The position numbers and the translations under genes were made by a program. A DNA stretch of 64,000 bases from Nocardia alni (GTDB taxonomy: Bacteria; Actinomycetota; Actinomycetes; Mycobacteriales; Mycobacteriaceae). Position 1 is the stretch's first letter. Each line of letters starts with the position of its first letter. The notes beneath the pieces are model-generated. The model saw nothing but the letters and a program-made list of their open reading frames with translations, had not been told where the DNA came from and made no database searches. The stretch lies in the NCBI RefSeq assembly GCF_019038435.1, contig NZ_JAGPOX010000039.1:1-64000 (forward strand). The letters are read 5' to 3'. Shown piece after piece: positions 746 to 19,974 of this stretch.

Positions 746-2341
746 TTGTCCAAGGGGGCGCGCTACGCCAGCACCACACCTGTCACCCTCGCGCAAGGGT
801 GGCACCTCGAACGACTAACACCACCCAGTCGCCTGTTCGGCGCCAACGGTTTGCGCACCGGATCCGACGGCCGCATCTATGTGGCCCAGGTGGCGGGCAG
901 CACGATCAGCGCACTGGATGTCATCACCGGTGATCTGGAGACGATCAGCGGCAAGGGCGGCGACATCATCGCCCCTGACGACATCGCCTTCGATCCCGAC
1001 GGCAACCTCATCGCCACCGAGTACATGGACGCTCGCGTCAGTATTCGCGGCGCCGATGGCCGCACCCGGGTGATCCGCGACGATCTGCCCGGCGCGAACG
1101 GCATCACCGTGCACCGTGGCCGATTGTTCGTCAACGAATGCCGGGTCGGCGGGCGCCTCATGGAGGTACCCCTCGACGGCGGCGCGCCGCGGATACTCCA
1201 GGACAACATGGCGATGCCCAATGCCATGGAGGTCGGCCCGGACGGCTTGCTCTACTACCCGGTCATGGGCAGCAACGACATTTGGCGCATCGACCCCGAT
1301 GGCGGTGAGCCGGAACGGGTCGCGGGCGATCTCGGTGTACCCGACTCGGTCAAGTTCGACTCCGAGGGCTTCATCGTCTCCACCCAGGTGGCCAGCGGTC
1401 AGGTGCTGCGCATCGATCCGCGCACGGGCGAGCAGCAGGTACTGGCGCAATTGGCGCCCGGCCTGGACAACTGCACCTTCGTCGGCGACCGGCTGTTCGT
1501 CTCCAGCTTCACCGGCGAGATCACCGAAATCCTCGGCGGCGGGCAGACACGGGAGGTCCTGGAGGGCGGGCTGATGTGGCCGCTGGACCTGACGGTCGGG
1601 CCGGACGGCAGTCTGTATGTCGCCGACGGCACCTACTTCCACGTCCTGCGCGAGGGCCGATTGCAGGTCGTCGCTTCGCTTTTCAGCCCCGGCACCCCCG
1701 GCTACGTACGCGGCGTCACCGCGGTCGGCCCGGGAGAGTTCCTGTGCACCACCTCCAACGGCGAGGTCTCCTACCACCGGCCGGGCGCCGACGCCGAAAC
1801 CGAGGTCGTGGCAGAGGGATTCGATCAGCTGTACGGGGTGATCTCGGGCCCGAATCGCACCATCGTCACCGCGGAATTCGGTGGCGGCCGGGTCCTGTCG
1901 ATCCGGCCCGGCCAGACCGACGTGCTGGCCTCGGGGCTCAACGGCCCGCTCGGCGTCGCGTTCGGCCCGGATGGGAACGTGCTGGTGTCCGAATCCGGGG
2001 CCGGGCGGATCGTCTCGATCAACGGCTCGACCGTCGACACGGTGGTCGACGGCCTCGATACCCCGCACGGAATCCTGGTGCGCGGCAATCAATTACTGAT
2101 CGTCGACGTCGGGCTCAAGGCACTGATCGGCGTGAACCTGGAGACCGGCACACGGCAGACGATCGCCGCCGACCTTCCGGTGGGCGTGCCGCCCGGGGTG
2201 GTCGCCAAACCGCTGCGCGGGACCCCGCCGTTCTCCGGGCCGATGGGACCCTTCGCGGGTATCACCGCCGGGCCGGACGGCACCGTCTATCTCTCGGCCG
2301 ACGCAGAAGGCAGCGTGATGGCGCTGCGATTCACAGAATGA
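746..2341 (+). CDS. SMP-30/gluconolactonase/LRE-type beta-propeller protein (possible lactonase)
   Basis: Repeated blade signatures such as G-x-D-G-x-I/L-Y-V-A, P-D-G-N-L/V and P-x-G-x-A-F/V-G run through the whole 531-residue protein, as in SMP-30/NHL-type propellers. At 531 residues it is nearly twice a single six-bladed propeller, suggesting two propeller-like halves. TTG at 746 is chosen because GGGAGG at 733-738 sits 7 bases before it. The in-frame ATG at 629 overlaps the operator at 623-636, and the ATG at 731 lacks a ribosome site. It is first in a 17-gene run; beside a Baeyer-Villiger monooxygenase, opening the resulting lactone is a plausible role (inference). Confidence 0.75.
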   Translation: MSKGARYASTTPVTLAQGWHLERLTPPSRLFGANGLRTGSDGRIYVAQVAGSTISALDVITGDLETISGKGGDIIAPDDIAFDPDGNLIATEYMDARVSIRGADGRTRVIRDDLPGANGITVHRGRLFVNECRVGGRLMEVPLDGGAPRILQDNMAMPNAMEVGPDGLLYYPVMGSNDIWRIDPDGGEPERVAGDLGVPDSVKFDSEGFIVSTQVASGQVLRIDPRTGEQQVLAQLAPGLDNCTFVGDRLFVSSFTGEITEILGGGQTREVLEGGLMWPLDLTVGPDGSLYVADGTYFHVLREGRLQVVASLFSPGTPGYVRGVTAVGPGEFLCTTSNGEVSYHRPGADAETEVVAEGFDQLYGVISGPNRTIVTAEFGGGRVLSIRPGQTDVLASGLNGPLGVAFGPDGNVLVSESGAGRIVSINGSTVDTVVDGLDTPHGILVRGNQLLIVDVGLKALIGVNLETGTRQTIAADLPVGVPPGVVAKPLRGTPPFSGPMGPFAGITAGPDGTVYLSADAEGSVMALRFTE

Positions 2342-2349
2342 GTGGAGCG

Positions 2350-3192
2350 ATGACAGACTTTTTCGGACTGGACGGACGCATCGTCATTGTTTCCGGTGCG
2401 GGCGGCGGCGGTATCGGCACCGCGGTGACCCGGCTGGTCGCCGAGGCCGGCGCCACCGTGATCGCGGTGAGCCGGTCCGCGGAGAATCTGAACAAGCACG
2501 TGGAACCCCTTGCCGCAGAGGGTCTTCCGGTGATCTCCGTGGCCGCCGACGCGGCCACCGACGAGGGCATCGAGACCGTGCTCGAGCGGGTGCGCCAGAC
2601 GGACGGTCAGCTGCACGGGCTGGTCAACGTGGCCGGCGGCGCGGCGCCCGCGACGTGGATGCCCTCCACCCGGGTCACCCGGGAGGATTGGCGCGCATTG
2701 TTCGCCTGGAATCTCGAGACGATGTTCTTCTTCAGCCGGGCCGTCGCGGCCGAACTGAAGTCGCACGAACACCCGGGCTCGATCGTGTCGCTCTCCTCGA
2801 TCAGCGGAATGAACACGGCCCCTTTCCATATCGGCTACGGCACCGCGAAGGCGGCGCTGGTGGCGGCCACCCGCACCATGGCCGTGGAGCTGGCGCAGGA
2901 AGGCATCCGGGTCAACGCCGTCGCCCCCGGGGTCACCGAAACCCCGTCGTCGCGAATGTATGTCGCGCCCGACCCGGAGCGCGACCGCCGGGCCATCGCG
3001 ATGGGCCGCCGCGCACAGCCGCACGAGCAGGCGGGACCGATCCTGTTCCTGCTCTCGGATCTGTCCAGTTACGTCACCGGGCAGACACTGCTCGTGGACG
3101 GCGGCCTCAACCTCAAGTGGACGCACCTGGACGCGGACAACACCTCGCTGTTCCTCGAGGACGAAGAGTTCCGCGCCGCCATCACGCGTTGA
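2350..3192 (+). CDS. Short-chain dehydrogenase/reductase
   Basis: Classical SDR of about 280 residues with a glycine-rich nucleotide loop (S-G-A-G-G-G-G-I-G), an N-V-A-G-G version of the N-N-A-G motif, a catalytic serine in S-L-S-S-I-S-G, and the active-site pair Y-G-T-A-K. The product should be a soluble NAD(P)-dependent oxidoreductase for an alcohol or ketone; the substrate is not deducible. The ATG at 2350 has GGAG a few bases upstream; an in-frame ATG at 2338 overlaps the stop of the preceding gene (ATGA), so the two genes are translationally coupled either way. A 40-base gap leads to the Rieske gene. Confidence 0.88.
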   Translation: MTDFFGLDGRIVIVSGAGGGGIGTAVTRLVAEAGATVIAVSRSAENLNKHVEPLAAEGLPVISVAADAATDEGIETVLERVRQTDGQLHGLVNVAGGAAPATWMPSTRVTREDWRALFAWNLETMFFFSRAVAAELKSHEHPGSIVSLSSISGMNTAPFHIGYGTAKAALVAATRTMAVELAQEGIRVNAVAPGVTETPSSRMYVAPDPERDRRAIAMGRRAQPHEQAGPILFLLSDLSSYVTGQTLLVDGGLNLKWTHLDADNTSLFLEDEEFRAAITR

Positions 3193-3232
3193 TCCGAAAT
3201 ATCACCCAGGAGAATTGCAGCAGGAGATCACG

Positions 3233-4609
3233 ATGACCGATATCGCCGAGCACCCCAATTCCGCTCCCGCCGAGCCGCTGTCGACACCGATGCTCATCCC
3301 GGTGGAGGCATATATCTCCCCCGAATACGCCCGCGCCGAACGCGACAAGTTGTGGCGCAAGGTGTGGCAGCAGGTCGACCGGATCGAGGAGATCCCCAAC
3401 GTCGGCGATTTCCTCACCTACGAGATCCTGGACGACTCGATCATCGTCATACGCACGGCGGCGGACACGATTCGCGCATACCACAATGTGTGCGCGCATC
3501 GCGGTCGCCGTCTGATCGACACGCCACCGGGTGAGCACGACGCCCGCGGCAGCCGCAAACAATTCGTCTGCGGCTTCCACGGCTGGCGATACGACCTCGA
3601 GGGACGCAATACGTTCGCCGCCGAGCGGGAGGATTGGCCGTGCGGGCTGACCGAACGCAACGACGGGCTCAACCAGGTCAAAATCGACACCTGGGGCGGC
3701 TGGATCTGGATCAATCTGGACCCGGACGCCGAACCGCTGCATGATTATCTGGAACCGGCCGCGGGTCTGCTCGATCCGTTCGAACTGGAGAACATGCGGT
3801 ACCGGTGGCGGCGCTGGCTGACGTTCGACTGCAACTGGAAGGTCGCGTTCGAGGCCTTCATGGAGACCTACCACGTGCCCTACACCCATCCGGAATTCAT
3901 GAATTTCGGGAATTTCCTCGGGTGGGCACGCTCGCAGGGCCTACACAGCAATATCGGCTACGACGCGCCCAAGGGTATGGACGAGAACCAGGGCAAGCTG
4001 CGCATCGGCAGCGGCCCCGACGCTCGCGTATCGACCGCCCAGTTGCAGAACTTCACCTGGGAGAACGCCAATACCAACACCACCCAGACGATGGTCGACG
4101 TGGCCAACCGGCTGGCCGACGAACTGCCCGACGGCACGCCCGCCGGTGAGGTGCTGCGGTACTGGCTGGACACCTCCCGGGCCGAGGACGCCAAGCGCGG
4201 CGTGAAGTGGCCGACCGTGCCCCCGGAGATCGTCGCCAAGAGCGGCACCTCCTGGCAGATCTTCCCCAACTTCCAGATCGGCCATGCCCCGAACAACGCC
4301 CTGGTCTACCGCTTCCGGCCGCACGGCTACGATCCGGACAAATGCATCTTCGAGGCCGCCGTCTTCGAACTCTTCCCGGAAGGTGAAGAGCCGGAGACGA
4401 AATGGGAATACACCCCGGTCGGCGATCCGGGCTGGCGCACCGTGCTGCCCCAGGATTTCGACAATATGGCCGCCGTTCAGCAGGGCATGAAATCGGCCGG
4501 CTTCTCCGGACCGAAACCCAATCCGTATCGCGAACGCACGATCGTCAACCTGCACCACAATCTCGCCCGGTACATGGGCGTCGGTGAACCCGGCGACCTC
4601 ACCGACTGA
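3233..4609 (+). CDS. Rieske aromatic ring-hydroxylating oxygenase, alpha subunit
   Basis: 458 residues. The N-terminal Rieske [2Fe-2S] domain shows C87-x-H89 (C-A-H-R-G) and C113-x2-H116 (C-G-F-H-G-W). The catalytic domain carries the mononuclear iron motif E-T-Y-H-V-P-Y-T-H with H214 and H219, and a candidate aspartate ligand in Q-D-F-D-N near the C-terminus. Members of this family insert oxygen into aromatic or alicyclic rings or demethylate ethers. No obvious small (beta) subunit, ferredoxin or reductase is adjacent; the SnoaL-fold proteins at 11506 and 19510 share the general fold of beta subunits but are not convincing partners. AGGAG at 3222-3226 supports the ATG. Confidence 0.92.
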   Translation: MTDIAEHPNSAPAEPLSTPMLIPVEAYISPEYARAERDKLWRKVWQQVDRIEEIPNVGDFLTYEILDDSIIVIRTAADTIRAYHNVCAHRGRRLIDTPPGEHDARGSRKQFVCGFHGWRYDLEGRNTFAAEREDWPCGLTERNDGLNQVKIDTWGGWIWINLDPDAEPLHDYLEPAAGLLDPFELENMRYRWRRWLTFDCNWKVAFEAFMETYHVPYTHPEFMNFGNFLGWARSQGLHSNIGYDAPKGMDENQGKLRIGSGPDARVSTAQLQNFTWENANTNTTQTMVDVANRLADELPDGTPAGEVLRYWLDTSRAEDAKRGVKWPTVPPEIVAKSGTSWQIFPNFQIGHAPNNALVYRFRPHGYDPDKCIFEAAVFELFPEGEEPETKWEYTPVGDPGWRTVLPQDFDNMAAVQQGMKSAGFSGPKPNPYRERTIVNLHHNLARYMGVGEPGDLTD

Positions 4610-4635
4610 AGACCCGCATCACATTAGGAATTCGA

Positions 4636-6462
4636 ATGCCGCAGTGCACCCCCTCCGAAACCCCCGAGGTCGACGTCTCCGCCCTCCGGGAGAAATATCT
4701 CGCCGAGCGCGATAGACGGCTGCGACCCGAGGCCGGCAGCCAATATATCTCGGTCGACGGACAATTCGCGGACTATTACGAGTCCGACCCGCACCAGCCG
4801 GTCGTGCCCCGCGAACCGATCATCGGCGACCTCGAGGTGGTGATCCTCGGTGGCGGATTCGCCGGGCTGATCACCGCCCATCGGCTTCAGCACGCGGGCG
4901 TGGAGGACTTCCAGATCATCGAGCTGGGCGGCGACTTCGGCGGCGTCTGGTATTGGAATCGCTACCCGGGCATCCAGGTCGACTCCGACGCCTACTGCTA
5001 TCTGCCGCTGCTCGAGGAGACCGGCTATCTGCCGAAGGAGAAATTCACTCACGGCGACGAGTGCTACGAGCACGCCCAGCGGATCGCCAAACAGTTCGGC
5101 TTCTACGACAAGGCGATCTTCCACACCCTGATCCACTCGCTGGAGTGGGACGAGCAGCTCGAGCGCTGGCGTATCCTCACCAACCGCGGCGACGACATCC
5201 GCGCCCGCTTCGTGATCATGTGCCAGGGTCCGTACAACCGGCCGAAACTGCCAGGCATACCCGGTATTTCGGACTTCAAGGGACGCATGTTCCACACCGC
5301 GCGCTGGGATTACGACTACACCGGCGGTGGTGTGCACGGCGGGCTCGACAAGATCGGCGACAAGCGCATCGCGGTCGTCGGCACCGGCGCCAGCGGCGTC
5401 CAGGTCATCCCCCACCTGGCCCGCGGCGCAAAGCATCTGACCGTCTTCCAGCGCACGCCGTCCTACATCTTCGAGCGCGCCGACCAGCCGACCGACCCCG
5501 AATGGGCGAAGACCCTGGAACCGGGGTGGCGCAACGCGCGGCAGCGCAACTTCCACAACGCGGCCTTCGCGTTCTACTCCCCCGGTGAGCCGGACCTCAT
5601 CTGCGACGGCTGGACCGAGGTCGCCCGCAATCTGGCTGCCAAGCTCGACGCCTCCAACGGCTGGGCCGCGCTGGCCGATCCGCTGAAGTTCCTCGAGCTC
5701 AAGGAGGTCGAGGACTATCGCGCGATGGAACGGCTGCGCAACCGGGTCGCCGAGATCGTCGAGGACCCGGCGACGGCGGAGGTACTGAAGCCGTACTACC
5801 GCAACATGTGCAAGCGGCCGGTGTTCAGCGACGCCTATCTGCCGACGTTCAACCGCCCGAACGTCACCCTGGTCGATGTCGCCGACTCCAAAGGCGTGGA
5901 ACGCATCACCGAGAAGGGCGTCGTCGCGAACGGGGTCGAGTACGAGGTCGACTGCATCGTGTTCGCGAGCGGTTTCGAGATCACCACCGCGCTCGAGCGC
6001 CAGTTCGACATCAAGCCCTTCGCCGGCCGCGGTGGCGAGTCGCTGTACGAGCACTGGGGCAAGGGTTTCCGCACCCTGCACGGCATCATGTCGCGCGGGT
6101 TCCCGAACCATTTCGCCACCGGGTTCGTCCAGGGCGGCGTGACCGCGTCGACCACGCTCATGTTCGAGCAGCAGGCCGATCACATCGCCTACATCGTCGC
6201 GCAGGCGAAAGCGCGCGGCGCCACGGTCGTGGAGCCCAGCCAGGAAGCCGAGGACGAGTGGGTGGCGACGATCCGGGCGAATTCGATCGACAACTCCGAA
6301 TTCGTCGAGACCTGTACTCCCGGTTACTACAACGCCGAGGGTGAGCCGAACGGCCGCTCGTTCCTCGGTGATCCGTACTGGGGTGGTTTCTATGTGCTCG
6401 AGGAGCTGTTGCAGGCCTGGCGTGACGCCGGTGATCTGGCCGGGCTCGAGCTGAAGCAGTAA
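4636..6462 (+). CDS. Flavin-containing Baeyer-Villiger-type monooxygenase
   Basis: 608 residues with two Rossmann motifs, an FAD loop (G-G-G-F-A-G-L at about 72-78) and an NADPH loop (G-T-G-A-S-G). Between them lies the type I Baeyer-Villiger fingerprint F-x-G-x-x-x-H-x-x-x-W-D (F-K-G-R-M-F-H-T-A-R-W-D, residues about 214-225). The G-G-V-W-Y-W-N-R-Y-P-G segment is also typical of this class. Such enzymes convert ketones to esters or lactones with O2 and NADPH. The length fits the larger BVMOs with N-terminal extensions (steroid, cyclopentadecanone and phenylacetone types). It follows the Rieske gene by 26 bases with AGGAA at 4626. Confidence 0.92.
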   Translation: MPQCTPSETPEVDVSALREKYLAERDRRLRPEAGSQYISVDGQFADYYESDPHQPVVPREPIIGDLEVVILGGGFAGLITAHRLQHAGVEDFQIIELGGDFGGVWYWNRYPGIQVDSDAYCYLPLLEETGYLPKEKFTHGDECYEHAQRIAKQFGFYDKAIFHTLIHSLEWDEQLERWRILTNRGDDIRARFVIMCQGPYNRPKLPGIPGISDFKGRMFHTARWDYDYTGGGVHGGLDKIGDKRIAVVGTGASGVQVIPHLARGAKHLTVFQRTPSYIFERADQPTDPEWAKTLEPGWRNARQRNFHNAAFAFYSPGEPDLICDGWTEVARNLAAKLDASNGWAALADPLKFLELKEVEDYRAMERLRNRVAEIVEDPATAEVLKPYYRNMCKRPVFSDAYLPTFNRPNVTLVDVADSKGVERITEKGVVANGVEYEVDCIVFASGFEITTALERQFDIKPFAGRGGESLYEHWGKGFRTLHGIMSRGFPNHFATGFVQGGVTASTTLMFEQQADHIAYIVAQAKARGATVVEPSQEAEDEWVATIRANSIDNSEFVETCTPGYYNAEGEPNGRSFLGDPYWGGFYVLEELLQAWRDAGDLAGLELKQ

Positions 6463-6472
6463 AGGAACGTCC

Positions 6473-7417
6473 ATGACACAGCTGCGATTCGACGATCGTG
6501 TCGCCGTGATCACCGGCGCCGGACGCGGTTTGGGCCGCGCCTACGCCGAATTACTGGCCTCCCTGGGCGCGAAGGTCGTCGTCAACGACGTCGGCGGCAC
6601 CATGCGCGGGGACGTCTTCGAGGCCGACGTGGCCGCCGAGGTGGTTCAAGCCATCAAGGACGACGGCGGCGAGGCGGTGGCCAGCACTGATTCGGTGGCC
6701 ACCGCGGCGGGCGGGCAAGCGATCGTCGAATCGGCGCTGGATCATTACGGGCGCCTGGACATCGTGATCCACAACGCGGGCAACGTCCGCTACGGCTCGC
6801 TCACCGAGCTGAGCTACGAGGATTTCGAGGCGGTCCTGGATGTGCACCTGCGGGGCGCATTCCACGTGGTGCGGGCCGGTTTCCCGGTGATGGCCGCGGC
6901 CGGATACGGCCGGGTGGTGCTGACCTCCTCGATCGGCGGCATCTACGGCAACAAGAGCGTCGCCAATTACGCGGTGTCCAAGGCCGGGCTGATCGGGTTG
7001 TCGAATGTCGTCGCGCTGGAGGGCGCCGAGGTGGGCGTTCGATCCAACGTGATCATCCCCTCGGCGCTGACCCGCATGGCCGCGGGCATCGACACCTCCG
7101 CCTATCCCGATATGCGGCCCGAGCTGGTGGCCCCCGCGGTCGGCTACCTGGCCCACGAATCCTGCACTCCCACCGGCGAATTGCTGGTGGCCATCGCGGG
7201 GCGGGTGGCCCGTGCCTACATCGGCGAAACGCCCGGCGTGTATCAACCCGCCTGGACCGTGGATGAGGTCGCCGACCGCATCGACGAGATCCGCGACACC
7301 GACAACTCCTGGATTCTGCCGCCGCTGTCGGCTCATGCCGATCACATCGGCCGGAGCTTCGCGATGGCGAGCCGCGAAATGCCCACCGGGGCAGCACAAC
7401 CTTCGAAAGGAAAGTGA
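6473..7417 (+). CDS. Short-chain dehydrogenase/reductase resembling the MFE-2 type 3-hydroxyacyl-CoA dehydrogenase domain
   Basis: 314 residues, longer than classical SDRs because of a C-terminal extension. It has T-G-A-G-R-G-L-G, H-N-A-G (N-N-A-G position), S-S-I-G-G and the active-site Y-A-V-S-K. The order of motifs and the H-L-R-G-A-F-H segment resemble the (3R)-hydroxyacyl-CoA dehydrogenase domain of peroxisomal multifunctional enzyme type 2, so a CoA-thioester substrate is possible but not shown. AAAGGA precedes the ATG. Its stop overlaps the ribosome-site region of the thiamine-diphosphate enzyme gene. Confidence 0.88.
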   Translation: MTQLRFDDRVAVITGAGRGLGRAYAELLASLGAKVVVNDVGGTMRGDVFEADVAAEVVQAIKDDGGEAVASTDSVATAAGGQAIVESALDHYGRLDIVIHNAGNVRYGSLTELSYEDFEAVLDVHLRGAFHVVRAGFPVMAAAGYGRVVLTSSIGGIYGNKSVANYAVSKAGLIGLSNVVALEGAEVGVRSNVIIPSALTRMAAGIDTSAYPDMRPELVAPAVGYLAHESCTPTGELLVAIAGRVARAYIGETPGVYQPAWTVDEVADRIDEIRDTDNSWILPPLSAHADHIGRSFAMASREMPTGAAQPSKGK

Positions 7418-7419
7418 GC

Positions 7420-9126
7420 ATGGCGATCAAGGTCTACGAACGCATCCTGGAACTGTTCGAAGCAGAGGGTATCAACACCATCTTCGGCATTCCGGACCCG
7501 AACTTCGTGCACCTTTTCCTGCGCGCGCAGGAGCGCGGCTGGAATGTCGTTTCGCCGCACCATGAGGAGGCGGCCGGCTTCATGGCCGAGGGTGTGTCGC
7601 GGATGACCGGCAAGGCGGCGGTGGCCATCGGCACCCTGGGACCGGGCGTCGCCAACCTCGCCGGATCCATCATGTGCGCCAAGGTGGAGAATTCGCCGAT
7701 CATCTTCTTGGGCGGACAGCGCGACCGGATCACCGAGCAGCGGGTGCGTCGCGGCCGAATCCAGTTCGTGCAGCAGGCCGGACTGATCGAGAACGCCGTG
7801 AAGTACAGCGCCAGCATCGAATACGCGGACCAGACCGACGAGATCATCCGCGAGGGTCTGCGCAAGGCGCTGTCCGGGACTCCCGGCCCGGTGTACATCG
7901 AGTACCCCCAGAACGTGATCCTGCAGGAGCTCGACCTCCCGCCGGTGTTGCCGCCCCACCGCTATCGCCTCGTCGGCCAGACCGCCGGACCGGACAAGAT
8001 CGCGGAGGCGGTGCAGTACATCCGCGCCGCGAAGCAGCCGATTCTGCTGGTGGGCCACGGGGTTCACACCTCTCGTGCGGGAGAGTCCGTCAGACAGCTC
8101 GCGGATCTCATCGCGGCGCCGGTCCTGCAGACCTCCGGCGGCACCTCGTACATCGAGGGCCTCGAGGATCGCACCTTCCCGTACGGCTTCTCGAAGGCCG
8201 GGCTCGAGGCCGTGGTGCAGTCCGATCTGTGCCTGGCCATCGGCACCGAACTCGGTGAACCCGTGCACTTCGGCCGCTGGCGGCACTGGGTGGCCAACGA
8301 GGAGAACCGCAAATGGATTCTGGTGGAACAGGATCCGTCTGCCATCGGGGTCAACCGCCCGATCGACGTTCCGCTGGTCGGCGACCTGCGCGCGATCGTG
8401 CCACAGCTGGTCGAGGCGCTGAAGGACACCCCGCGCAAGCCCACCCCGCAGCTGCAGGGCTGGATCGACCAGGACGCCGCCCGGCTCGCGGAGCTGGCCG
8501 AGACCGCGCCGTCGGGCCAGACCCCGGTGCATCCGGCCCGTCTGATCGTGGAGGCCACCAAGGCATTTCCGCCCGAGGGCATCATGGTCCGCGACGGCGG
8601 CGCGACCACGATCTTCGGCTGGACCTATTCGCAGGCCAAACCCCACGATGTGATCTGGAACCAGAACTTCGGGCATCTGGGCACCGGCCTGCCGTACGCG
8701 GTGGGCGCGTCGGTGGCCGACGGCGGTAAGCGGCCGGTCATGCTGATCACCGGCGACTCGTCGTTCCAGTTCCAGATCGCGGAGCTGGAAACCGCCGCGC
8801 GCCACAATCTTCCGCTGGTCTGCGTGGTCGGCGTGGACTACGCCTGGGGCCTCGAGGTCGGGGTCTACAAGCGCACGTTCGGGCAGGGTTCGCTGGAGAC
8901 CGCCGCGCACTGGAGCAAGGACGTGCGGCTGGACAAGGTGGCCGAGGGCTTCGGATGCTATGGCGAATACGTCGAGCGCGACGAGGATATCGCCCCCGCC
9001 ATCAAGCGTGCCTACGCCAGCGGCAAGCCCGGAGTCATCCACGTCGCGGTCGACCCGAAGGCCAACTCGGAAGAGATGCCGAGCTACGACGAATTCCGTA
9101 CCTGGTACGCGGAAGGGCAGCAGTAG
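7420..9126 (+). CDS. Thiamine-diphosphate-dependent enzyme (acetolactate synthase / 2-hydroxyacyl-CoA lyase superfamily)
   Basis: 568 residues with the three-domain layout of the family. The activating glutamate is in H-H-E-E-A-A (about E49). The cofactor-binding motif G-D-S-S-F-Q begins at about 445. Where most members have N-N, about 27 residues after G-D, this protein has V-D (residues 472-473). The family makes or cleaves C-C bonds next to a carbonyl; examples are acetolactate synthase, benzoylformate decarboxylase and 2-hydroxyacyl-CoA lyase. ATG at 7420 is preferred because AAAGGA at 7406-7411 is well spaced; GTG 7414 is too close. With the aldehyde dehydrogenase next to it, a lyase releasing an aldehyde is plausible (inference). 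Confidence 0.85.
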   Translation: MAIKVYERILELFEAEGINTIFGIPDPNFVHLFLRAQERGWNVVSPHHEEAAGFMAEGVSRMTGKAAVAIGTLGPGVANLAGSIMCAKVENSPIIFLGGQRDRITEQRVRRGRIQFVQQAGLIENAVKYSASIEYADQTDEIIREGLRKALSGTPGPVYIEYPQNVILQELDLPPVLPPHRYRLVGQTAGPDKIAEAVQYIRAAKQPILLVGHGVHTSRAGESVRQLADLIAAPVLQTSGGTSYIEGLEDRTFPYGFSKAGLEAVVQSDLCLAIGTELGEPVHFGRWRHWVANEENRKWILVEQDPSAIGVNRPIDVPLVGDLRAIVPQLVEALKDTPRKPTPQLQGWIDQDAARLAELAETAPSGQTPVHPARLIVEATKAFPPEGIMVRDGGATTIFGWTYSQAKPHDVIWNQNFGHLGTGLPYAVGASVADGGKRPVMLITGDSSFQFQIAELETAARHNLPLVCVVGVDYAWGLEVGVYKRTFGQGSLETAAHWSKDVRLDKVAEGFGCYGEYVERDEDIAPAIKRAYASGKPGVIHVAVDPKANSEEMPSYDEFRTWYAEGQQ

Positions 9127-13178: not shown

Positions 13179-14006
13179 ATGGCAACCGTCGCCACCGAGA
13201 AACTGAGTGACAAGGTCGGAGTGGAGATCCTCGACGTCGACGTCGAGCGCCTGCTCACCGACGACGACCTGCCCGCGGCATGCCTGGACCTGCTCGAGGA
13301 ACACAGCGTGCTGCTGTTCCGCGAACTGCACGCCGGGGACGACGCGCAGGTGACGTTCAGCCGCAAACTGGGCGAACTGGTTCAGTTCCCCAAATACGCG
13401 AACCCGAACGTCATGGAGGTCAGTTTCGATCCGGACAACCCGAATGCGAAATACCTGCCCAGCAACGACTATTGGCATCTCGACGGATTCATGGACGAGG
13501 TACCGGCACGGGCCTCCATCATGAGCGCTCACGTGGTGACCGATGTCGGCGGCGAGACGGGTTTCGCCAGTACCTACGCGGCCTATGACGAACTGTCCGA
13601 TGCGGAAAAGGAACAATTCGGCTCGCTGCGCGTGATCCACTCGATGTCGAAGGTCCAGCGCCTGTCCTATCCGAATCCCACCGCGGAGCAGGAGGCCGAC
13701 TGGGCGCGGTGGACCGACCGCGAACATCCGCTGGTGTGGAAGCACGAGTCGGGCCGCAACTCGCTCGTGTTCGGGTCCAGTGCGGAGCGCATCGTCGGCA
13801 TGGATATCGCGGAAAGCCGCGAGCTCCTGGACGATCTGGAGCGCCGCGCCACCACGCCGGACCGGATCTACAAGCACACCTGGGCGGTCGGGGACCTGGT
13901 GATCTGGGACAACACCGGCCTGCTGCACCGGGCCTGCGAATTCGACCGCGCCAAGCCGCGGCGGATGCACCGCACGACCCTCGTCGGTCAGGAATCGGTC
14001 AAATAG
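13179..14006 (+). CDS. TauD/TfdA-family Fe(II)/2-oxoglutarate dioxygenase
   Basis: 275 residues, the normal size. Iron ligands are visible: H100-x-D102 in Y-W-H-L-D-G and a distal H250 in L-L-H-R-A-C. The 2-oxoglutarate-binding arginine is in the R-R-M-H-R segment (261-265). The family hydroxylates alkyl sulfonates, aryloxyalkanoates and related acids, often causing C-S, C-O or C-N cleavage. The substrate is unknown. TAGGAGAGG precedes the ATG. Confidence 0.9.
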   Translation: MATVATEKLSDKVGVEILDVDVERLLTDDDLPAACLDLLEEHSVLLFRELHAGDDAQVTFSRKLGELVQFPKYANPNVMEVSFDPDNPNAKYLPSNDYWHLDGFMDEVPARASIMSAHVVTDVGGETGFASTYAAYDELSDAEKEQFGSLRVIHSMSKVQRLSYPNPTAEQEADWARWTDREHPLVWKHESGRNSLVFGSSAERIVGMDIAESRELLDDLERRATTPDRIYKHTWAVGDLVIWDNTGLLHRACEFDRAKPRRMHRTTLVGQESVK

Positions 14007-14097: not shown

Positions 14098-15732
14098 ATG
14101 TCCAGCACCGAGACAACTCCCCCGCCCGATAACGTCGACACCGTCGATTCGGTCACCGAACCCGATTCCGGCCGACTCGACGGGGCCTCGCCCCTGCGTC
14201 TGTTCTCGATCCTCATCGTCGTCATTCTGTTCACCGAGATCGCACCGTTGCAATACACGATGGTGGCCGCGGCCCTGCAGAAGATGACGAAGACCTTCCC
14301 CACCGTCGGGGGCAATATCAACTGGGCGGTCATCATTCTCGGTGTCGTCGGCGCCTCCGCCACACCACTGGTCGGCAAGGCCAGCGATATCTGGGGCAAG
14401 AAAAGGCTGCTGCTGCTCTGCGGCCTGATCTTCCTGGTGGGCGCGGTGATCGACGCGACCACCACGAACTGGACGCTGTTCCTCATCGGCCGCGGCCTGT
14501 CGGCCCTGGCCATCGCCACCCAGTTCATCGCCTACGGTCTCGTCCGGGACCTCATGCCGCGCAAGTACGTTCCCATCGGTATCGGCATGATCGGTGCGGG
14601 CGTGGGCTTTTCGGGCGCCATCGCGCCCCTGGTCGGCGGCTATCTGGTCGACCATTTTCAATGGCAGGCCATGTTCTGGTTCCTGGCGATCTACACCGTC
14701 GTCCTCACACCGCTGGTGATATTCCTGGTGCCGGAATCGAAAATCCGTGTGCGGGAACGGATCGATCCGATCGGTGCGATCACGCTGTCCGCGGGCGTGC
14801 TGTTCGTGCTGCTCTACCTCGACAACGGCCAGAACTGGGGTTGGGCTCGCCCGAGCAGCCTCGCCTGGCTGATCGGCGGGCTGGTGCTGGTGGCGGCGTT
14901 CTTCGCCGTCGAATCCCGGATCCGCCAGCCGATCATGGATATGAAACTGCTGGCCAATCCGAAGGTCAGCATCGTCATGCTGATGGCGCTGGTGGGCATG
15001 GGAATCACCGCCGTGCAGCCCTTGGCCCTCGGCTACATGACGCAGACGCCCGGCAGTGACGCACTGCGCGCCAATGTCGTCGAAGGTGTTGTCGCCCAGG
15101 CGCATCAGAAGGGCGCCAACCTTCCCGCCGCCCTGGTGCACGTGAGTCTCGACCCGGGCTACAGCTACGGCAGCGGATTCACCATGCTGGGGTACGCGTT
15201 TCACATCGCCCTCTGGGTCGGCGTGATGGCCGTCATCTTCGGTCCGATCGCCGGCATCGTGGCCCGGCGCACGGGTCCCCGTATCTCGGCGATCATCGCG
15301 TTCACGGTGCTGACGGTGTCCGGAATCGGTTTCGCGGTGTTCCATTACAGCTGGGTGACCTATCTGGTGCTCGCCATGCTGGGTGGTATCGCCTTCGGGT
15401 TCGTCAACGCCGCGCTGCCCAACCTCATCGTCGAGGCCGTTCCCCCCGAACAGCAGGGCATCAGCACCGGCATGCTCGGCGTCACCATGAGCGTGGGCAC
15501 CGGCGGCGCGATGGCCATCACCACCGCACTGCTCAACAACAACCCGGTCAAGGCGCATATCGATGTGATGGGTCATCAAGCGGTGCAGGTGATTCCGCAG
15601 GTGTTCGCCGACCGCGGCTACACCGAGAGTTTCTGGGTGGTCGTCGGCACCACGGTCGCGGCCCTCGTCATCGCCCTGCTCATGCGTCACGGTCGCCAAC
15701 CCGCCACCGGCGGAGCACGGGGAAAGTCATGA
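14098..15732 (+). CDS. MFS transporter, DHA2-like (about 14 membrane segments)
   Basis: 544 residues with many hydrophobic helices. The loop after the second helix has the MFS motif G-K-A-S-D-I-W-G-K-K-R and the fifth-helix region has G-A-G-V-G-F-S-G-A-I-A-P-L-V-G-G, as in drug:H+ antiporters. A soluble loop of about 50 residues in the second half (around 320-370) is longer than usual. ATG 14098 is chosen because GTGGAG at 14087-14092 is well placed; GTG 14053 lies upstream in frame. It probably moves the pathway substrate or a toxic product across the inner membrane. Its stop overlaps the next ATG. Confidence 0.9.
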   Translation: MSSTETTPPPDNVDTVDSVTEPDSGRLDGASPLRLFSILIVVILFTEIAPLQYTMVAAALQKMTKTFPTVGGNINWAVIILGVVGASATPLVGKASDIWGKKRLLLLCGLIFLVGAVIDATTTNWTLFLIGRGLSALAIATQFIAYGLVRDLMPRKYVPIGIGMIGAGVGFSGAIAPLVGGYLVDHFQWQAMFWFLAIYTVVLTPLVIFLVPESKIRVRERIDPIGAITLSAGVLFVLLYLDNGQNWGWARPSSLAWLIGGLVLVAAFFAVESRIRQPIMDMKLLANPKVSIVMLMALVGMGITAVQPLALGYMTQTPGSDALRANVVEGVVAQAHQKGANLPAALVHVSLDPGYSYGSGFTMLGYAFHIALWVGVMAVIFGPIAGIVARRTGPRISAIIAFTVLTVSGIGFAVFHYSWVTYLVLAMLGGIAFGFVNAALPNLIVEAVPPEQQGISTGMLGVTMSVGTGGAMAITTALLNNNPVKAHIDVMGHQAVQVIPQVFADRGYTESFWVVVGTTVAALVIALLMRHGRQPATGGARGKS

Positions 15733-16745
15733 AGACGGTCCTGGTGACCGCGCCGGGCCGGACCGAGGTACGGCAGGTCGAGCAGCCCGCGGCCGGTCCA
15801 GCGGATGTGGTCGTGCGGGTGAAGGCGTGCGGAATCTGCGGATCCGACGGCTTCTACATCCACAACGGCGGCATCCCGCCGCGTATGGGCGCGACGCCGC
15901 TCGGGCACGAACCGGCCGGTGAGGTCGTCGCGGTCGGAGATCGGGTCGCCGGTGTCGAGGTGGGAGACCACATCGTCGTGGACCCGATGGCGACCACCGA
16001 CGGCCTGGTCGGCGGCGGTGGCGCCCAAGGCGCCCTCTCTGATGTGCTGGTCCTGTACGACGCGAAGCCCGGCAAGCATTTCCGTGTCGTGCCGCGCGAA
16101 ATCCCTTGGCACGTCCTGGCGCTCAACGAGCCGATGGCGGTCGCCTATCACGGCGTCAACCGTTCCGGTGCGGGTGTGGGCGCCAAGGCCGTGGTGTTCG
16201 GTGCCGGGCCGGTCGGTCTCGGCGCCGCGATCGGGCTGAAATCCAAGGGCGCCGCGCATGTGGTGGTGATCGATGTGGTGCCCAACCGGCTCCAGAAGGC
16301 GCTGCTGGTCGGCGCGGACGCGGTGATCAACTCCGCCGAGGAGGACGTGGTGACCCGCCTGAAGACCCTGCACGGGGAGGCACCGAGCCACATGGGCCGC
16401 CCCACGCGACCCGATACCGACGTCTACATCGACGCCGCGGGCGCCGCGGCCGTGGTCGAGACCGCACTGCGGTCGGTGAAGCACCGCGGTGTGCTCACCA
16501 TCGTCGGAGTGCACAAGCAGCCGGTGCCGATCGACTTCCAGCAGATCCTCACCAGCGAGGTCGACATCCGGATGTCGATGGGATATCCGACGGAGATATT
16601 CGAGGTGACGGACTCGATCATCAGGGATTGGGACAAATACCAGCACATCGTGAGCGACATCGTGCCGTTCTCGGATGCCGAGAGCGGCCTTCGCCTGGCC
16701 GCCACCCCGGGAGCGACCGACAAGGTCGTCATCACATTCGACTGA
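15729..16745 (+). CDS. Zinc-type alcohol dehydrogenase (medium-chain, lacking the structural-zinc lobe)
   Basis: 338 residues. Catalytic-zinc residues are visible in C-G-I-C-G-S-D, G-H-E-P and the N-E-P-M segment; the Rossmann loop is V-F-G-A-G-P-V-G-L-G. The four-cysteine structural-zinc loop is absent and replaced by a glycine-rich stretch. It is clearly paralogous to the dehydrogenase at 46887-47942: both share V-N-R-S-G-A-G, T-D-V-Y-I-D-A-A-G and the Y-P-T-E-I-F-E end. It oxidises an alcohol or reduces a ketone with NAD(P). ATGA overlap with the transporter gene indicates coupling. Confidence 0.9.
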   Translation: MKTVLVTAPGRTEVRQVEQPAAGPADVVVRVKACGICGSDGFYIHNGGIPPRMGATPLGHEPAGEVVAVGDRVAGVEVGDHIVVDPMATTDGLVGGGGAQGALSDVLVLYDAKPGKHFRVVPREIPWHVLALNEPMAVAYHGVNRSGAGVGAKAVVFGAGPVGLGAAIGLKSKGAAHVVVIDVVPNRLQKALLVGADAVINSAEEDVVTRLKTLHGEAPSHMGRPTRPDTDVYIDAAGAAAVVETALRSVKHRGVLTIVGVHKQPVPIDFQQILTSEVDIRMSMGYPTEIFEVTDSIIRDWDKYQHIVSDIVPFSDAESGLRLAATPGATDKVVITFD

Positions 16746-16768
16746 CCCACGAACAGAGGAAGTATCAG

Positions 16769-17512
16769 ATGACTACTCGCACAGCCATTGTCACCGGCGG
16801 CGCCTCCGGAATCGGCGGCGCCATCAGCAAACGCCTCGCCGCCGACGGCGCCCGGGTGGCGATCTTCGACATCAACGGCGACGCCGCCAAGAACGCGGCG
16901 GCGGCCATCGAGGAAAAGGGCGGCACCGCAATCGGTCTCGCCGTCGACGTGACGAACCGCGCCGGCATCGACGCCGGGATCGCGGACGTGGGCGCCCGGC
17001 TCGGCCGCCCGACGATCCTGGTGAACAGCGCCGGGATCACCCTGGCCGGGCCGACCCTCGAATTCACCGCCGCCGACTGGAACACGGTGCTGGCGATCAA
17101 CCTGACGGGCACCTTCGACTGCTGCCAGGCGGCGCTGCCCGGAATGATCGAGGAGGGCTGGGGCCGCATCGTCAACATCTCGTCGTCCAGCATGCACAGT
17201 GGGGTGGCCCGGATGGCCGCCTACGTGTCGTCGAAGGCGGCGGTGGTCGGTCTCACCAAGGTGCTGGCGCTCGAATTCGCCCGAAACGGCGTCACGGTCA
17301 ACACGATTCCGCCCGGGTTCATCGAGACTCCCATGCTGGACGGCGCCAAGGCCGGCGGCGTGTTCGATATGGAGAAGCAACTGGCGAACACGCCGGTGGG
17401 CCGGATCGGCCAGCCCGAGGACATCGCGGCCGCCTGCGCGTACCTGGTGAGCGAGGAGGCCAGTTACGTCACCGGCCAGGTGATCGGCGTCAACGGCGGA
17501 CGCAACACCTGA
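16769..17512 (+). CDS. Short-chain dehydrogenase/reductase, FabG-like
   Basis: 247 residues, classical SDR length. T-G-G-A-S-G-I-G-G, N-S-A-G (N-N-A-G position), S-S-S-S-M and Y-V-S-S-K are all present. AGAGGA at 16755-16760 supports the ATG. It resembles 3-oxoacyl-ACP/CoA reductases, but many secondary alcohol dehydrogenases share this pattern, so the substrate is open. Confidence 0.9.
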   Translation: MTTRTAIVTGGASGIGGAISKRLAADGARVAIFDINGDAAKNAAAAIEEKGGTAIGLAVDVTNRAGIDAGIADVGARLGRPTILVNSAGITLAGPTLEFTAADWNTVLAINLTGTFDCCQAALPGMIEEGWGRIVNISSSSMHSGVARMAAYVSSKAAVVGLTKVLALEFARNGVTVNTIPPGFIETPMLDGAKAGGVFDMEKQLANTPVGRIGQPEDIAAACAYLVSEEASYVTGQVIGVNGGRNT

Positions 17513-17530
17513 CCCGAACGACAACCCCTG

Positions 17531-17567
17531 TCGCGGGCCGCCCATCGCAGGTTCGGGCGGCCCGCGA
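17531..17567 (+). terminator. Strong GC hairpin, 13-bp perfect stem, inside the operon
   Basis: TCGCGGGCCGCCC and GGGCGGCCCGCGA pair perfectly around an 11-base loop. There is no T-run after it. Actinobacterial terminators often lack U tails, so it may end or attenuate transcription between the SDR and the CMD gene, or protect the upstream mRNA. Confidence 0.6.
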
Positions 17568-17595
17568 CATTCACCTACCGGAAGGATCGACAACC

Positions 17596-18177
17596 ATGGC
17601 TCGGATCGAACCCGTCGCGAAGGCCGACTGGCCTTCGGAGATAACGGATTTCATCGCGAACTTCCAAGCGTCGGTGCGCGGTGACCGGCCGCCGGGCAAT
17701 CGCCCGGGCGGGGTCAACCTGCTCGGCACGCTGGTCCGCTATCCCGAACTCGCGATGCCGTTCCTGACCTTCAACGGCCATTTCCTCTACGGAAATTCGC
17801 TGTCGCCGCGACACCGCGAGATGCTCATCCTGCGCGTCGCGACCCTGCGTCACTGCGACTACGAGTGGGCTCAGCACACGCTGCTCGCCGGGGACGCCGG
17901 GCTGTCGGCCCAGGAGATCGAGTACGCCACCGCGGGACCCGACACACCGGGCTGGGCGCCGATCGAGCAGGCCCTGCTGCGGGCGGTCGACGAGCTGATC
18001 GGTGACGGCGCGATCGGCGGCGACACCTGGAAGCTGCTGGCCGCCGAGTTCGACGAGAAGCAGCTCATGGACGTCGTTTTCACCGTGGCCACCTACGAGA
18101 TGGTGGCGATGATGCTGCGCTCGCTCGACGTCGACCCGGAACCCGATCTCGTGCCCCACCTGCCCGACCGGAAATAA
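17596..18177 (+). CDS. Carboxymuconolactone decarboxylase / AhpD-like family protein
   Basis: 193 residues. The conserved helix R-E-M-L-I-L-R-V-A-T-L-R-H-C-D-Y-E-W-A-Q-H matches the CMD family (PF02627) with the Y-E-W-x-x-H active-site signature. It has a single Cys there, so it is not a CxxC AhpD-type disulfide reductase. Family members decarboxylate gamma-carboxymuconolactone or act as uncharacterised enzymes. GAAGGATC precedes the ATG at 17596. A role in ring-cleavage product processing is inferred. Confidence 0.83.
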   Translation: MARIEPVAKADWPSEITDFIANFQASVRGDRPPGNRPGGVNLLGTLVRYPELAMPFLTFNGHFLYGNSLSPRHREMLILRVATLRHCDYEWAQHTLLAGDAGLSAQEIEYATAGPDTPGWAPIEQALLRAVDELIGDGAIGGDTWKLLAAEFDEKQLMDVVFTVATYEMVAMMLRSLDVDPEPDLVPHLPDRK

Positions 18178-18204
18178 TCGGCCGAGAACGATGGGAACAC
18201 AACT

Positions 18205-19071
18205 GTGACAGTCGAATCCGCCCGCAACGTCGCGGTCGTCACCGGAGCCAGCGCCGGAATAGGCAAGTCGACCGCCCGGATGCTCGCGGCCCGCGGCTGG
18301 CAGGTGATCGGCGTCGGCCGCAACCCCGAGCGCAGCGCCGCCGCCACCGCCGAGATCAACGCCGCCGCACGTGAGGGCGGGACGTTCACCATGGTGCGCG
18401 GCGACTTCACCCTGATGGCCGAGGTCAAGCGGGTGGCGGCCGAAATAGGCGATAGCACAGCACATATCGATGTGCTGATCAACAACGCCGGCGGCGTCCG
18501 CGACCAGCGGATCGTGACCGCCGAGGGCACCGAGGCGACCTTCGCCGCCAACCACCTCGCCCCCTTTCTGCTGACCCGCGAACTCATGCCGCTCCTGCTC
18601 GAGTCCGATTCGGCCCGGGTGATCGCGGTATCCTCCGCGGGCCACCGCATGAGCCGCGGCCTGGACTGGGAGGATCTGCAGAGCCTGGGCAACTTCCGCA
18701 CCGGCTCCGCGTACTGCCAGGCCAAACTCGCCAACATCCTGTTCACCCGCGAACTCGACCGGCGCGCCGGCCAGGACGGAATCACCGCGCAGGCAATGCA
18801 TCCCGGGACAGTGGACAGCAACTTCGCCTCGCACGGGGACGCGACGATGAAGGCACACATGGAGAATAAGGTCGACGCCGTCTCACCCGACGAACCGGCC
18901 GAGACGCTGGTCTGGCTCGCCACCGACCCCGCGGCGGGCGATACGGGCGGTCGTTTCTTCTACCGCAAGGCCGAGGAGATTCCGGCCGATCCGGCTCTGG
19001 ACGACGCCGCGGCCGCCCGACTCTGGATCGAAAGCGAGAAGCTCCTGGCCACGCTCGGCTACCCGGCGTAG
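18205..19071 (+). CDS. Short-chain dehydrogenase, retinol-dehydrogenase-like
   Basis: 288 residues starting at GTG. It has T-G-A-S-A-G-I-G, L-I-N-N-A-G-G, V-S-S-A-G-H and Y-C-Q-A-K-L-A-N, the last being typical of the retinol dehydrogenase/WW-domain oxidoreductase-type SDRs. The upstream ATG at 18191 is out of frame. The substrate is likely hydrophobic (inference from family). Confidence 0.87.
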   Translation: MTVESARNVAVVTGASAGIGKSTARMLAARGWQVIGVGRNPERSAAATAEINAAAREGGTFTMVRGDFTLMAEVKRVAAEIGDSTAHIDVLINNAGGVRDQRIVTAEGTEATFAANHLAPFLLTRELMPLLLESDSARVIAVSSAGHRMSRGLDWEDLQSLGNFRTGSAYCQAKLANILFTRELDRRAGQDGITAQAMHPGTVDSNFASHGDATMKAHMENKVDAVSPDEPAETLVWLATDPAAGDTGGRFFYRKAEEIPADPALDDAAAARLWIESEKLLATLGYPA

Positions 19072-19120
19072 CCCGGATCCTCGAATACACCGCAGTACTC
19101 GACAACACAGGAGAAGTCGG

Positions 19121-19492
19121 ATGCCGGTTTACAAACTGATCTTGTTACTCAAGAAACGTCCCGACATGTCGGTGCAGGAGTTTCGTGACTACTACGAGAC
19201 GAAGCATCGTCTGATCGGCGAGAAATACCCCGCCGGCATGGTGCGCTACGTGCGCCGGTACCTCGATCCAGCGCCGGGCGATACCGCGGAGCTCCCGTAC
19301 GACGTGATCACCGAGGTTTGGTTCGACAATCGCAAGATATTCGAAGCCGCTCTGCGGAATGTGTCGAGCGAAAACCTTGACGCGGAAGTCGTCGCCGACG
19401 AGGAGCGACTGTTCGACAGGCCGAAGAACCGGGTGATGACCGTTGTCGAGGTCGAATCGGACCTGGACCGCATCAGGGCCGGGAATTCATAA
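19121..19492 (+). CDS. EthD-domain protein
   Basis: 123 residues; the start Y-K-L-I-L-L-L-K-K-R-P-D-M-S and the F-R-D-Y-Y-E-T-K-H motif are typical of EthD (PF07110) dimeric alpha-beta barrel proteins. EthD is needed for ethyl tert-butyl ether degradation in Rhodococcus beside a P450; other members act in polyketide or aromatic pathways. AGGAGAAG lies before the ATG. The exact biochemical role is unknown. Confidence 0.82.
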   Translation: MPVYKLILLLKKRPDMSVQEFRDYYETKHRLIGEKYPAGMVRYVRRYLDPAPGDTAELPYDVITEVWFDNRKIFEAALRNVSSENLDAEVVADEERLFDRPKNRVMTVVEVESDLDRIRAGNS

Positions 19493-19509
19493 ATCACCCG
19501 GGAGCGACG

Positions 19510-19974
19510 GTGTTGGACAATACGGACCGACTGCTGGCGATCGAGGCCATACGCCGGGCCAAGGCCCGCTATTTTCGCGGCGTCGACACGTGCGACGGCG
19601 AGATGGTGCGCGATATTCTCGCCGCCGACTGCGTCCTGGACTACCGGGGCTGCTGCACCGATCCGGCGACCGGACATGACTTTCTCCCGGCCATGAATGT
19701 GGTGATGCGAGGCCGTGAATCCTGGGTCTCGGACGGCCTGTCCGGCCTCGGCATCGTCAGCGTTCATCAGAGTCACGACAGTGAAATCACGCTTACCGGT
19801 GACCGTTCCGCCGGCGCGATATGGTCGATGACCGACCGGCTGTACATGCCCGCGGGATCCGATATCGGGGTGATGACCGGATTCGGCTATTACCACGAGA
19901 CCTACGAGCAGACCGGCGGAGCCTGGCAGATCAAAACTCTGCGGATCACCCGTCTGCGGGTCGAGGGCGCCTGA
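19510..19974 (+). CDS. SnoaL-like NTF2-fold protein, last gene of the operon
   Basis: 154 residues. E-A-I-R-R-A-K-A-R-Y-F-R-G-V-D and the following I-L-A-A-D-C-V-L-D-Y match SnoaL-like domains (PF13577). GTG 19510 or TTG 19513 start; GGGAG at about 19499-19503 serves either. It is the second protein of this fold in the operon (with 11506). Function is not assignable beyond a small-molecule binding or isomerase/hydratase fold. Confidence 0.75.
   Translation: MLDNTDRLLAIEAIRRAKARYFRGVDTCDGEMVRDILAADCVLDYRGCCTDPATGHDFLPAMNVVMRGRESWVSDGLSGLGIVSVHQSHDSEITLTGDRSAGAIWSMTDRLYMPAGSDIGVMTGFGYYHETYEQTGGAWQIKTLRITRLRVEGA

Follow-up and report, generated by a model that had tools for sequence, protein, structure and literature searches.

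A recurrent seven-gene core in an oxygenase-rich gene run of Nocardia alni, with a possible role in alicyclic ring catabolism

The 64,000-nucleotide stretch of Nocardia alni DNA analysed here (hereafter the window) begins at the first base of contig C330 (NZ_JAGPOX010000039.1, 65,262 bases) in a draft assembly of 9.98 Mb (GCF_019038435.1), and it carries 18 consecutive plus-strand genes, rich in oxygenases, at positions 731/746-19974. The first seven of these genes form a core that recurs in many actinobacteria and on sphingomonad megaplasmids, and genes associated with this core in relatives lie on a second contig of the same genome. The core is a real, widespread and probably catabolic module, in which known enzyme families come together in an unusual combination. 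On balance, we favor a function in the lactone-type ring cleavage of a bulky alicyclic, terpenoid- or steroid-like compound, followed by C-C cleavage or decarboxylation by a thiamine diphosphate (ThDP)-dependent enzyme, aldehyde oxidation and beta-oxidation.

Conservation of the core and its split locus

The core begins with a predicted double six-bladed beta-propeller protein of the SGL/NHL type, a lactonase candidate (746..2341, plus strand like the rest of the run; Pfam SGL, NCBIfam ScyD/ScyE), whose start is either the TTG at 746, with a GGAGG seven bases 5' of it, or an alternative ATG at 731. It continues with a short-chain dehydrogenase/reductase (SDR), SDR1 (2350..3192, alternative start 2338; Pfam adh_short_C2), the alpha subunit of a Rieske oxygenase (RHO; 3233..4609; Pfam Rieske and Ring_hydroxyl_A, with the diagnostic motifs), a type I Baeyer-Villiger monooxygenase (BVMO) nearest the PtlE group (4636..6462), a second SDR, SDR2 (6473..7417), a ThDP enzyme whose clade has no near relative of solved structure (7420..9126), and an aldehyde dehydrogenase (ALDH; 9132..10562; Pfam Aldedh at 523 bits, GQTC motif).

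Recurrence was assessed in 84 loci gathered with the ThDP protein, namely genome contigs (the best 80 of 330 relatives) and four plasmids, whose genes were called with a codon model derived from the window's 18 genes and least reliable on non-actinobacterial DNA. Presence was scored with per-gene cut-offs of 45-60% identity set by eye; loci cut by contig ends counted as misses, and six loci shorter than 15 kb were counted as they are. On this basis the propeller gene is present in 67 loci, SDR1 in 72, RHO in 78, the BVMO in 82, SDR2 and the ALDH in 80 each, and the ThDP gene, by selection, in all 84. All seven occur together in 63 of the 84, and of the 71 loci that span 20 kb or more, 42 keep the exact colinear order.

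The core, or most of it, is found in Nocardia, Rhodococcus, Williamsia, Aldersonia, Mycobacterium/Mycolicibacterium, Actinomadura, Actinocorallia, Streptacidiphilus, Actinophytocola and Pseudofrankia and, outside the actinobacteria, on two Sphingobium megaplasmids and in one gammaproteobacterial metagenome-assembled genome (MAG). Frankia, an acidobacterial MAG and a Rhodospirillaceae MAG hold a partial core, with the proviso that MAG contigs may be misassigned. Although Mycobacterium, M. branderi, Sphingobium and the gammaproteobacterial MAG arrange the genes differently, the genes remain clustered; M. branderi, for instance, places the ThDP and ALDH genes ahead of RHO, BVMO and SDR2, and the propeller gene is divergent in many mycobacteria. 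A shared function is supported because the genes stay together despite this reshuffling. The proteins also co-vary roughly: pairwise distances across loci correlate at r 0.84 for ThDP-BVMO and at r 0.86 for both ThDP-RHO and BVMO-RHO, in a comparison made without a housekeeping-gene control.

How did the core come to be so distributed? With the ThDP gene as marker (matches with an E value no worse than 1e-200; every count includes the genome of the window), it is present in 39 of 118 Nocardia genomes, in 29 of 201 genomes of the family, representing 8 of 31 genera, and in 5 of 296 genomes sampled across the phylum, all five within the window's family. Among named genomes, Nocardia supplies the nearest ThDP relatives, at up to 91% identity (best 80 of 330), and complete plasmid copies at 70-72% exist in alphaproteobacteria, on sphingomonad megaplasmids. 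This patchy distribution, together with the alphaproteobacterial plasmid copies, suggests that the core has spread horizontally.

Individual loci have features of their own. Williamsia faeni holds two ThDP copies (L063 and L066), the second among rearranged core genes and with one internal TGA in the match. The plasmid of Sphingobium RAC03 carries cas2 and cas9 near the cluster (L011:11674-14523) and, at L011:22500-24606, matches to the ALDH and propeller without an annotated gene; the ALDH match spans 22500-23285 only and is perhaps a broken gene. Candidate loci set aside as further examples include the tomato Sphingobium strains RC1 and TomTYG64, which have BVMOs at 44-45% but no Rieske/ThDP-core set annotated beside them. 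Only parts of the system are present at a second RHO locus in each of Sphingobium RAC03 and WTD-1 and at the Sphingomonas paeninsulae BVMO locus, which were likewise set aside.

The system extends beyond the window, since a GntR/FCD regulator and paired acyl-CoA dehydrogenases sit on contig C411. The regulator gene (C411:38785-39591) ends 650 bases before the contig end and is preceded by the dehydrogenase pair (C411:36541-37485 and 37482-38639); C411 also encodes an enoyl-CoA hydratase and a second acyl-CoA dehydrogenase pair. A regulator at least 50% identical to that of C411 occurs in 40 of the 84 loci, and relatives of the paired dehydrogenases at the same threshold in 28 and 32. Nocardia aurantia (L013) has the regulator gene immediately upstream of the propeller gene; in the window, its place is occupied by a CadD-like cadmium-resistance transporter gene (1-492, minus strand, cut by the contig end). 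Paired acyl-CoA dehydrogenases adjoin core genes in Nocardia, in Mycobacterium and in the acidobacterial MAG with its partial core. The Sphingobium RAC03 plasmid has, at a second locus, a dehydrogenase pair together with RHO (66%), SDR4 (50%) and TauD (41%) homologues, and CoA transferase, CoA ligase or MaoC genes stand at or near SDR2 in Mycobacterium, the gammaproteobacterial MAG and Sphingobium. To judge by these contigs, the locus is split in the window's genome by an insertion, a rearrangement or an assembly gap. Comparison of the ends of C411 and C330 gave no exact overlap over 10 bases, and inspection by eye of the C411 tail in six frames revealed no remainder of the CadD-like gene.

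Three of the four C411 acyl-CoA dehydrogenases match PimC/PimD or IpdE2 models, all below cut-off, and the fourth has no model match at 1e-20. The stretch C411:25291-39591 (L105 and L106) holds this upstream half together with a set of CoA transferase, OYE-like and Amdase-like genes. The C411 CoA transferase, OYE-like reductase, Amdase-like protein and putative GntR-like regulator (C411:29450-30088; by eye) are 77-82% identical to four genes of the Frankia AgB1.9 locus (L052), which at L052:2555-7557 carries HMG-CoA-lyase-like, CoA transferase, OYE-like and Amdase-like genes between core genes.

The gene run and its downstream tail

As originally predicted, the oxygenase-rich run at 746-19974 lies on a single strand and has no gap much above 90 bases, the largest being 91 bp. 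It is bounded on both sides by predicted genes on the opposite strand (the CadD-like gene and, at 20021-20929 on the minus strand, a predicted gene without a Pfam match). The successive intergenic distances are 8, 40, 26, 10, 2, 5, 41, 41, 48, 26, 91, -4, 23, 83, 27, 49 and 17. The one discrepancy found in the observation is the number of genes, given as seventeen and counted here, by codon-usage gene calling and inspection of starts, as 18. Pfam and NCBIfam scans (the former on open frames, which in some cases exceed the final gene calls in length) agree with the predicted list of a Rieske oxygenase, a BVMO, a TauD-type dioxygenase, a luciferase-like monooxygenase (LLM) flavoprotein, a ThDP enzyme, a propeller and five SDRs, and add the ALDH, a Zn-dependent alcohol dehydrogenase (Zn-ADH), a major facilitator superfamily (MFS) transporter, a carboxymuconolactone-decarboxylase (CMD) family protein, an EthD-domain protein and two SnoaL_4 proteins. 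Under a naive coin-flip model of strand, a run of at least 18 among 60 genes has a probability of about 1.5e-4, which is a rough guide only, since real operons violate that null. Consensus scans of the run gave 0 sigma70-like promoters against 3.1 in shuffled sequence, so that internal promoters are neither proven nor excluded, and 6 terminator-like sites against 9.2.

Beyond the core, the 11 remaining genes fall into two groups. Five belong to recurrent accessory cassettes. The SDR3-SnoaL cassette consists of SDR3 (10604..11464; 17 of 84 loci) and SnoaL_4 protein 1 (11506..12066; Pfam PF13577; 16 loci). The TauD-SDR4-CMD cassette consists of a TauD/TfdA-family 2-oxoglutarate dioxygenase (13179..14006; Pfam PF02668; 32 loci), SDR4, which stands beside TauD in relatives (16769..17512; NCBIfam FabG-like; 33 loci), and the CMD-family protein (17596..18177; Pfam PF02627; 31 loci). 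The other six appear to be accretions: at 45% identity, the LLM flavoprotein (12115..13152; Pfam Bac_luciferase) is found near the core in one of the 84 loci, that of Rhodococcus USK13, and the MFS transporter (14098..15732; Pfam MFS_1), Zn-ADH (15729..16745; Pfam ADH_N and ADH_zinc_N), SDR5 (18205..19071; Pfam adh_short), the EthD-domain protein (19121..19492; Pfam PF07110) and SnoaL_4 protein 2 (19510..19974; Pfam PF13577) in none; weaker Zn-ADH homologues, at 30-41% identity, occur in four.

Gene order therefore does not support the idea of one 19-kb pathway of seventeen genes in that form: the seven-gene module is conserved, whereas the run as a whole is not uniform across genomes. Could the run be a composite, in which the core is one pathway and the distal genes serve unrelated substrates, sharing with it nothing except direction? 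This is the best of the alternatives, though we hold it to be doubtful. The near absence of the six distal genes from core loci speaks for it, even though 35 of the 36 loci with a plus-strand CMD or SDR4 gene read at least 2 kb beyond it. So do the draft genomes of other Nocardia: among the 118 genomes, strong matches to the LLM protein exist in 3 and to SDR5 in 11 (own genome included), and the homologue and the ThDP gene lie on different contigs in 2 of 2 and 7 of 7, respectively, of the other genomes that have both. Each of the two Nocardia LLM homologues has one TGA inside the match (G086:C1:1077830-1078846 and G091:C23:254591-255607). On the opposite side, spacing remains tight to the end of the run (gaps from -4 to 91), the accretions interleave with SDR4 and CMD of the recurrent TauD cassette, and remoter linkage would escape notice because the genome-contig loci stop 10 kb past the ThDP gene. 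Since the distal genes stand near the core in none or one of the 84 loci and lie on other contigs in Nocardia, we read the run as a conserved core with a lineage-specific tail, one that may have been acquired recently.

Two further features lie downstream in the window: a second same-strand set at 23038-28867, with 3-hydroxyisobutyrate-dehydrogenase-like, PrpF, ALDH, FAD_binding_2 and metallo-beta-lactamase genes, and a gene at 29088-32435 for a 1115-aa protein with Ser/Thr kinase, AAA and MalT-like TPR regions.

Core enzymes and the pathway they may form

The BVMO carries the type I fingerprint FxGxxxHxxxW (FKGRMFHTARW at 214), flanked by the GxGxxG Rossmann motifs GGGFAG at 72 and GTGASG at 249, and G216, H220 and W224 are invariant in 17 of 17 sequences. 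Its best NCBIfam model is PtlE, at 667 bits and short of the equivalog cut-off of 1100, and its best solved relative is PDB 5mq6 (E 1.5e-117), a polycyclic-ketone monooxygenase; the enzyme probably acts on bulky ketones. Within its own genome, the BVMO gives 23 matched stretches (itself included, and some being two pieces of one gene), among them two homologues 44-45% identical over nearly the full length, on contigs C166 and C387. The RHO has the Rieske motif CAH...CGFH at 87 and the mononuclear-iron motif ETYHVPYTH at 211, with C87, H89, C113, H116, E211, H214 and H219 invariant in 20 of 20 sequences. Its bridging position is Glu211, where Asp is usual; a glutamate there is also a trait of carnitine monooxygenase, solved structures of which are among the RHO's PDB matches.

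The ThDP enzyme contains all three Pfam domains (TPP_enzyme_N, M and C), and its activating Glu49 is invariant in 19 of 19 sequences and aligns with the Glu of solved relatives. Among the 25 best models listed no NCBIfam model reaches its cut-off; the best, PRK08322, scores 265 against 509. The curated cut-offs for acetolactate synthase, 2-hydroxyacyl-CoA lyase (191.2 against 600) and oxalyl-CoA decarboxylase (203.2 against 557) are likewise not reached. A plasmid search returned four records at 70.5-79.7% identity, with the next-ranked at 30.6%, and on sequence grounds these ThDP proteins are a discrete clade; the predicted structure is poor (predicted local distance difference test, pLDDT, 69.0).

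For the propeller, Pfam SGL scores 52.5 bits (cut-off 26.3) and the NCBIfam ScyD/ScyE family 123.4 bits (cut-off 80), and alignments of the predicted structure (pLDDT 88.8) indicate two six-bladed propellers. Because whole-model Foldseek matches are mostly multi-propeller receptors with a root-mean-square deviation near 20, the comparison was made per domain (VIA rows): the N-terminal propeller aligns with the lactonase 7ris (Z 28.0, 2.2 A, 234 aligned) and with the NHL domain 7b2r (Z 29.2, 2.1 A, 235 aligned). Residues N34, D78, D79, N118, N159, D241 and N242 are invariant in 27 of 27 sequences, in a fold for which NHL domains score as high as lactonases.

From these families and motifs, together with the recurrent gene order, the rough co-variation and the split locus, we infer the reactions, their succession and the class of substrate as follows. 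The RHO would hydroxylate a ring or side-chain carbon, SDR1 would convert the hydroxyl to a ketone, and the BVMO would insert oxygen to give a lactone or ester, which the propeller protein may open; an SDR would then oxidize the freed alcohol. The ThDP enzyme could cleave a C-C bond beside a carbonyl, in an alpha-hydroxyketone, an alpha-diketone or a 2-oxoacid, to yield an aldehyde, which the ALDH would oxidize to an acid. The acid would be CoA-activated and then beta-oxidized by the paired acyl-CoA dehydrogenases and the enoyl-CoA hydratase of C411; SDR2 may serve as a 3-hydroxyacyl-CoA dehydrogenase, and the SDR3-SnoaL1 and TauD-SDR4-CMD cassettes may act on a substituent or at a later step in some hosts. 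The order originally proposed, from hydroxylation through ketone and lactone formation and opening to C-C cleavage and aldehyde oxidation, is accordingly kept as plausible.

Several observations weigh against this assignment. First, the ThDP count carries no evidential weight because the loci were picked by that gene, and the 84 loci are not independent, some species being represented by several strains and Williamsia faeni by two loci. Second, the distance correlations partly reflect shared host ancestry, and co-variation with the rest of the core is weaker for the ALDH and SDR1 (r 0.44-0.73; 0.44-0.59 for the ALDH). Third, the enzymes themselves deviate in places. The propeller matches NHL domains, those such as 7b2r not being known as lactonases, and designed propellers no less well than it matches lactonases; the glycine motif of SDR1 is one residue longer than GxxxGxG and SDR3 is without an exact YxxxK, both departures from classical SDRs; and the best model for SDR2, PRK07791, scores 189 bits, below its cut-off of 373. 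Finally, Pfam finds no ferredoxin, reductase or beta subunit for the RHO among the 18 genes, both SnoaL_4 proteins matching PF13577 only. Many alpha-only Rieske oxygenases are without such neighboring genes, and for that reason the missing electron chain says nothing on whether the RHO is an alpha subunit of this kind.

What might the substrate be? An unlikely candidate, if a concrete one, is abscisic acid (ABA) or a related norisoprenoid with an ionone-type ring. In published work, Rhodococcus P1Y converts ABA to dehydrovomifoliol and then to rhodococcal acid; the authors propose a BVMO for the second step and state that the enzymes are not established (PMC9599779). The core includes both a BVMO and an ALDH. 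R. globerulus NBRC 14531 carries the core (L038), and the ABA-utilizing strain AX7B, with an average nucleotide identity of 98.75% to it, places growth on ABA within a core-carrying species (PMC12509608). The Frankia locus, moreover, encodes in addition an HMG-CoA-lyase-like protein, a CoA transferase and an OYE-like reductase. A retro-aldol step that cleaves a 3-hydroxy-3-methylacyl-CoA would be in keeping with this, and four genes of that locus, the lyase excepted, have their 77-82% homologues on C411. However, the lyase-like gene occurs in just one of the 84 loci (1 of 1545 predicted proteins), and the best own-genome match to it is 39%. No Rhodococcus P1Y record is among the best 80 of 330 loci, in a collection that may not include P1Y, Novosphingobium P6W is not the source of any of the four plasmid records at or above 60%, and a host range that takes in slow-growing mycobacteria and MAGs offers no specific pointer to ABA. 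ABA catabolic genes are not named in PMC12509608 or PMC6460035, nor in the available portions of PMC6938937, PMC7996341, PMC12349427 and PMC12462448.

It is very improbable that the run instead serves the biosynthesis of a lactone terpenoid, as the pentalenolactone genes do, with counterparts of the PtlE BVMO, the PtlD dioxygenase and an SDR, and with the MFS protein as exporter: PtlE is the best NCBIfam model for the BVMO, PtlD is second best for TauD, and the transporter matches drug-efflux models, all below cut-off among the 25 matches listed, but the Ptl scores fall far below cut-off (BVMO 667 of 1100; TauD 82 of 550), Pfam and NCBIfam find neither a terpene synthase nor a P450 in the 18-gene run, none of the 84 loci has the MFS gene next to the core, and acyl-CoA dehydrogenases, CoA transferases and an enoyl-CoA hydratase recur beside the core.

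Returning to ring catabolism, the original prediction did not recognize a described pathway in the set, and no match to a characterized cluster emerged from the open-access literature (subscription papers lying outside the scope), from Pfam and NCBIfam scans or from PDB searches. Because the module is widespread and without an assigned substrate in the material searched, a common natural compound without known breakdown genes is indicated. A bolder version, which we offer as a tentative possibility, is a horizontally spread pathway not described before: a BVMO/propeller-lactonase branch and a new C-C-cleaving ThDP enzyme would together dismantle an alicyclic terpenoid ring, and the paired acyl-CoA dehydrogenases would finish the work. 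If true, it may provide the genes still lacking for a natural compound of wide occurrence, ABA or another norisoprenoid being the boldest candidate. The core offers a discrete ThDP clade, a BVMO probably directed at bulky ketones and a double-propeller lactonase candidate, and it is compact and thus amenable to genetic dissection.

Comparison with known systems

Each of the systems that the run brings to mind shares part of its equipment. With ABA catabolism in Rhodococcus P1Y and Novosphingobium P6W, the likeness is the BVMO step, as proposed in PMC9599779, whereas the available portions of the texts on that side name no ABA catabolic genes. Pentalenolactone/neopentalenolactone biosynthesis likewise uses a PtlE-like BVMO, a TauD-family dioxygenase and an SDR, whereas the window's proteins score below the equivalog cut-offs and no terpene synthase is among the 18 genes. 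Actinobacterial steroid degradation, with its FadE pairs and KshA, resembles the system in the paired acyl-CoA dehydrogenases, in the IpdE2 match on C411 and in a RHO alpha subunit without an adjoining beta subunit; on the other hand, the IpdE2 score is 123.9 against a cut-off of 450, and no steroid-specific equivalog rises above cut-off among the matches listed.

Cyclohexane-1,2-dione hydrolase shares the ThDP fold, by a profile match only (E 3.6e-42), and would likewise supply an aldehyde to an ALDH, although for the window's enzyme it is outranked by acetolactate synthase and by 2-hydroxyacyl-CoA lyase/oxalyl-CoA decarboxylase. The chn (cyclohexanol) and cpn (cyclopentanol) pathways proceed from a dehydrogenase through a type I BVMO, lactone opening, a dehydrogenase and an ALDH to beta-oxidation. 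The system described here differs from them in its RHO, its ThDP enzyme, its PtlE-nearest BVMO and its paired acyl-CoA dehydrogenases, and in the double propeller that replaces the alpha/beta-hydrolase lactonase, yet it would follow the same succession of enzyme steps, ending as they do in the beta-oxidation of an acid.

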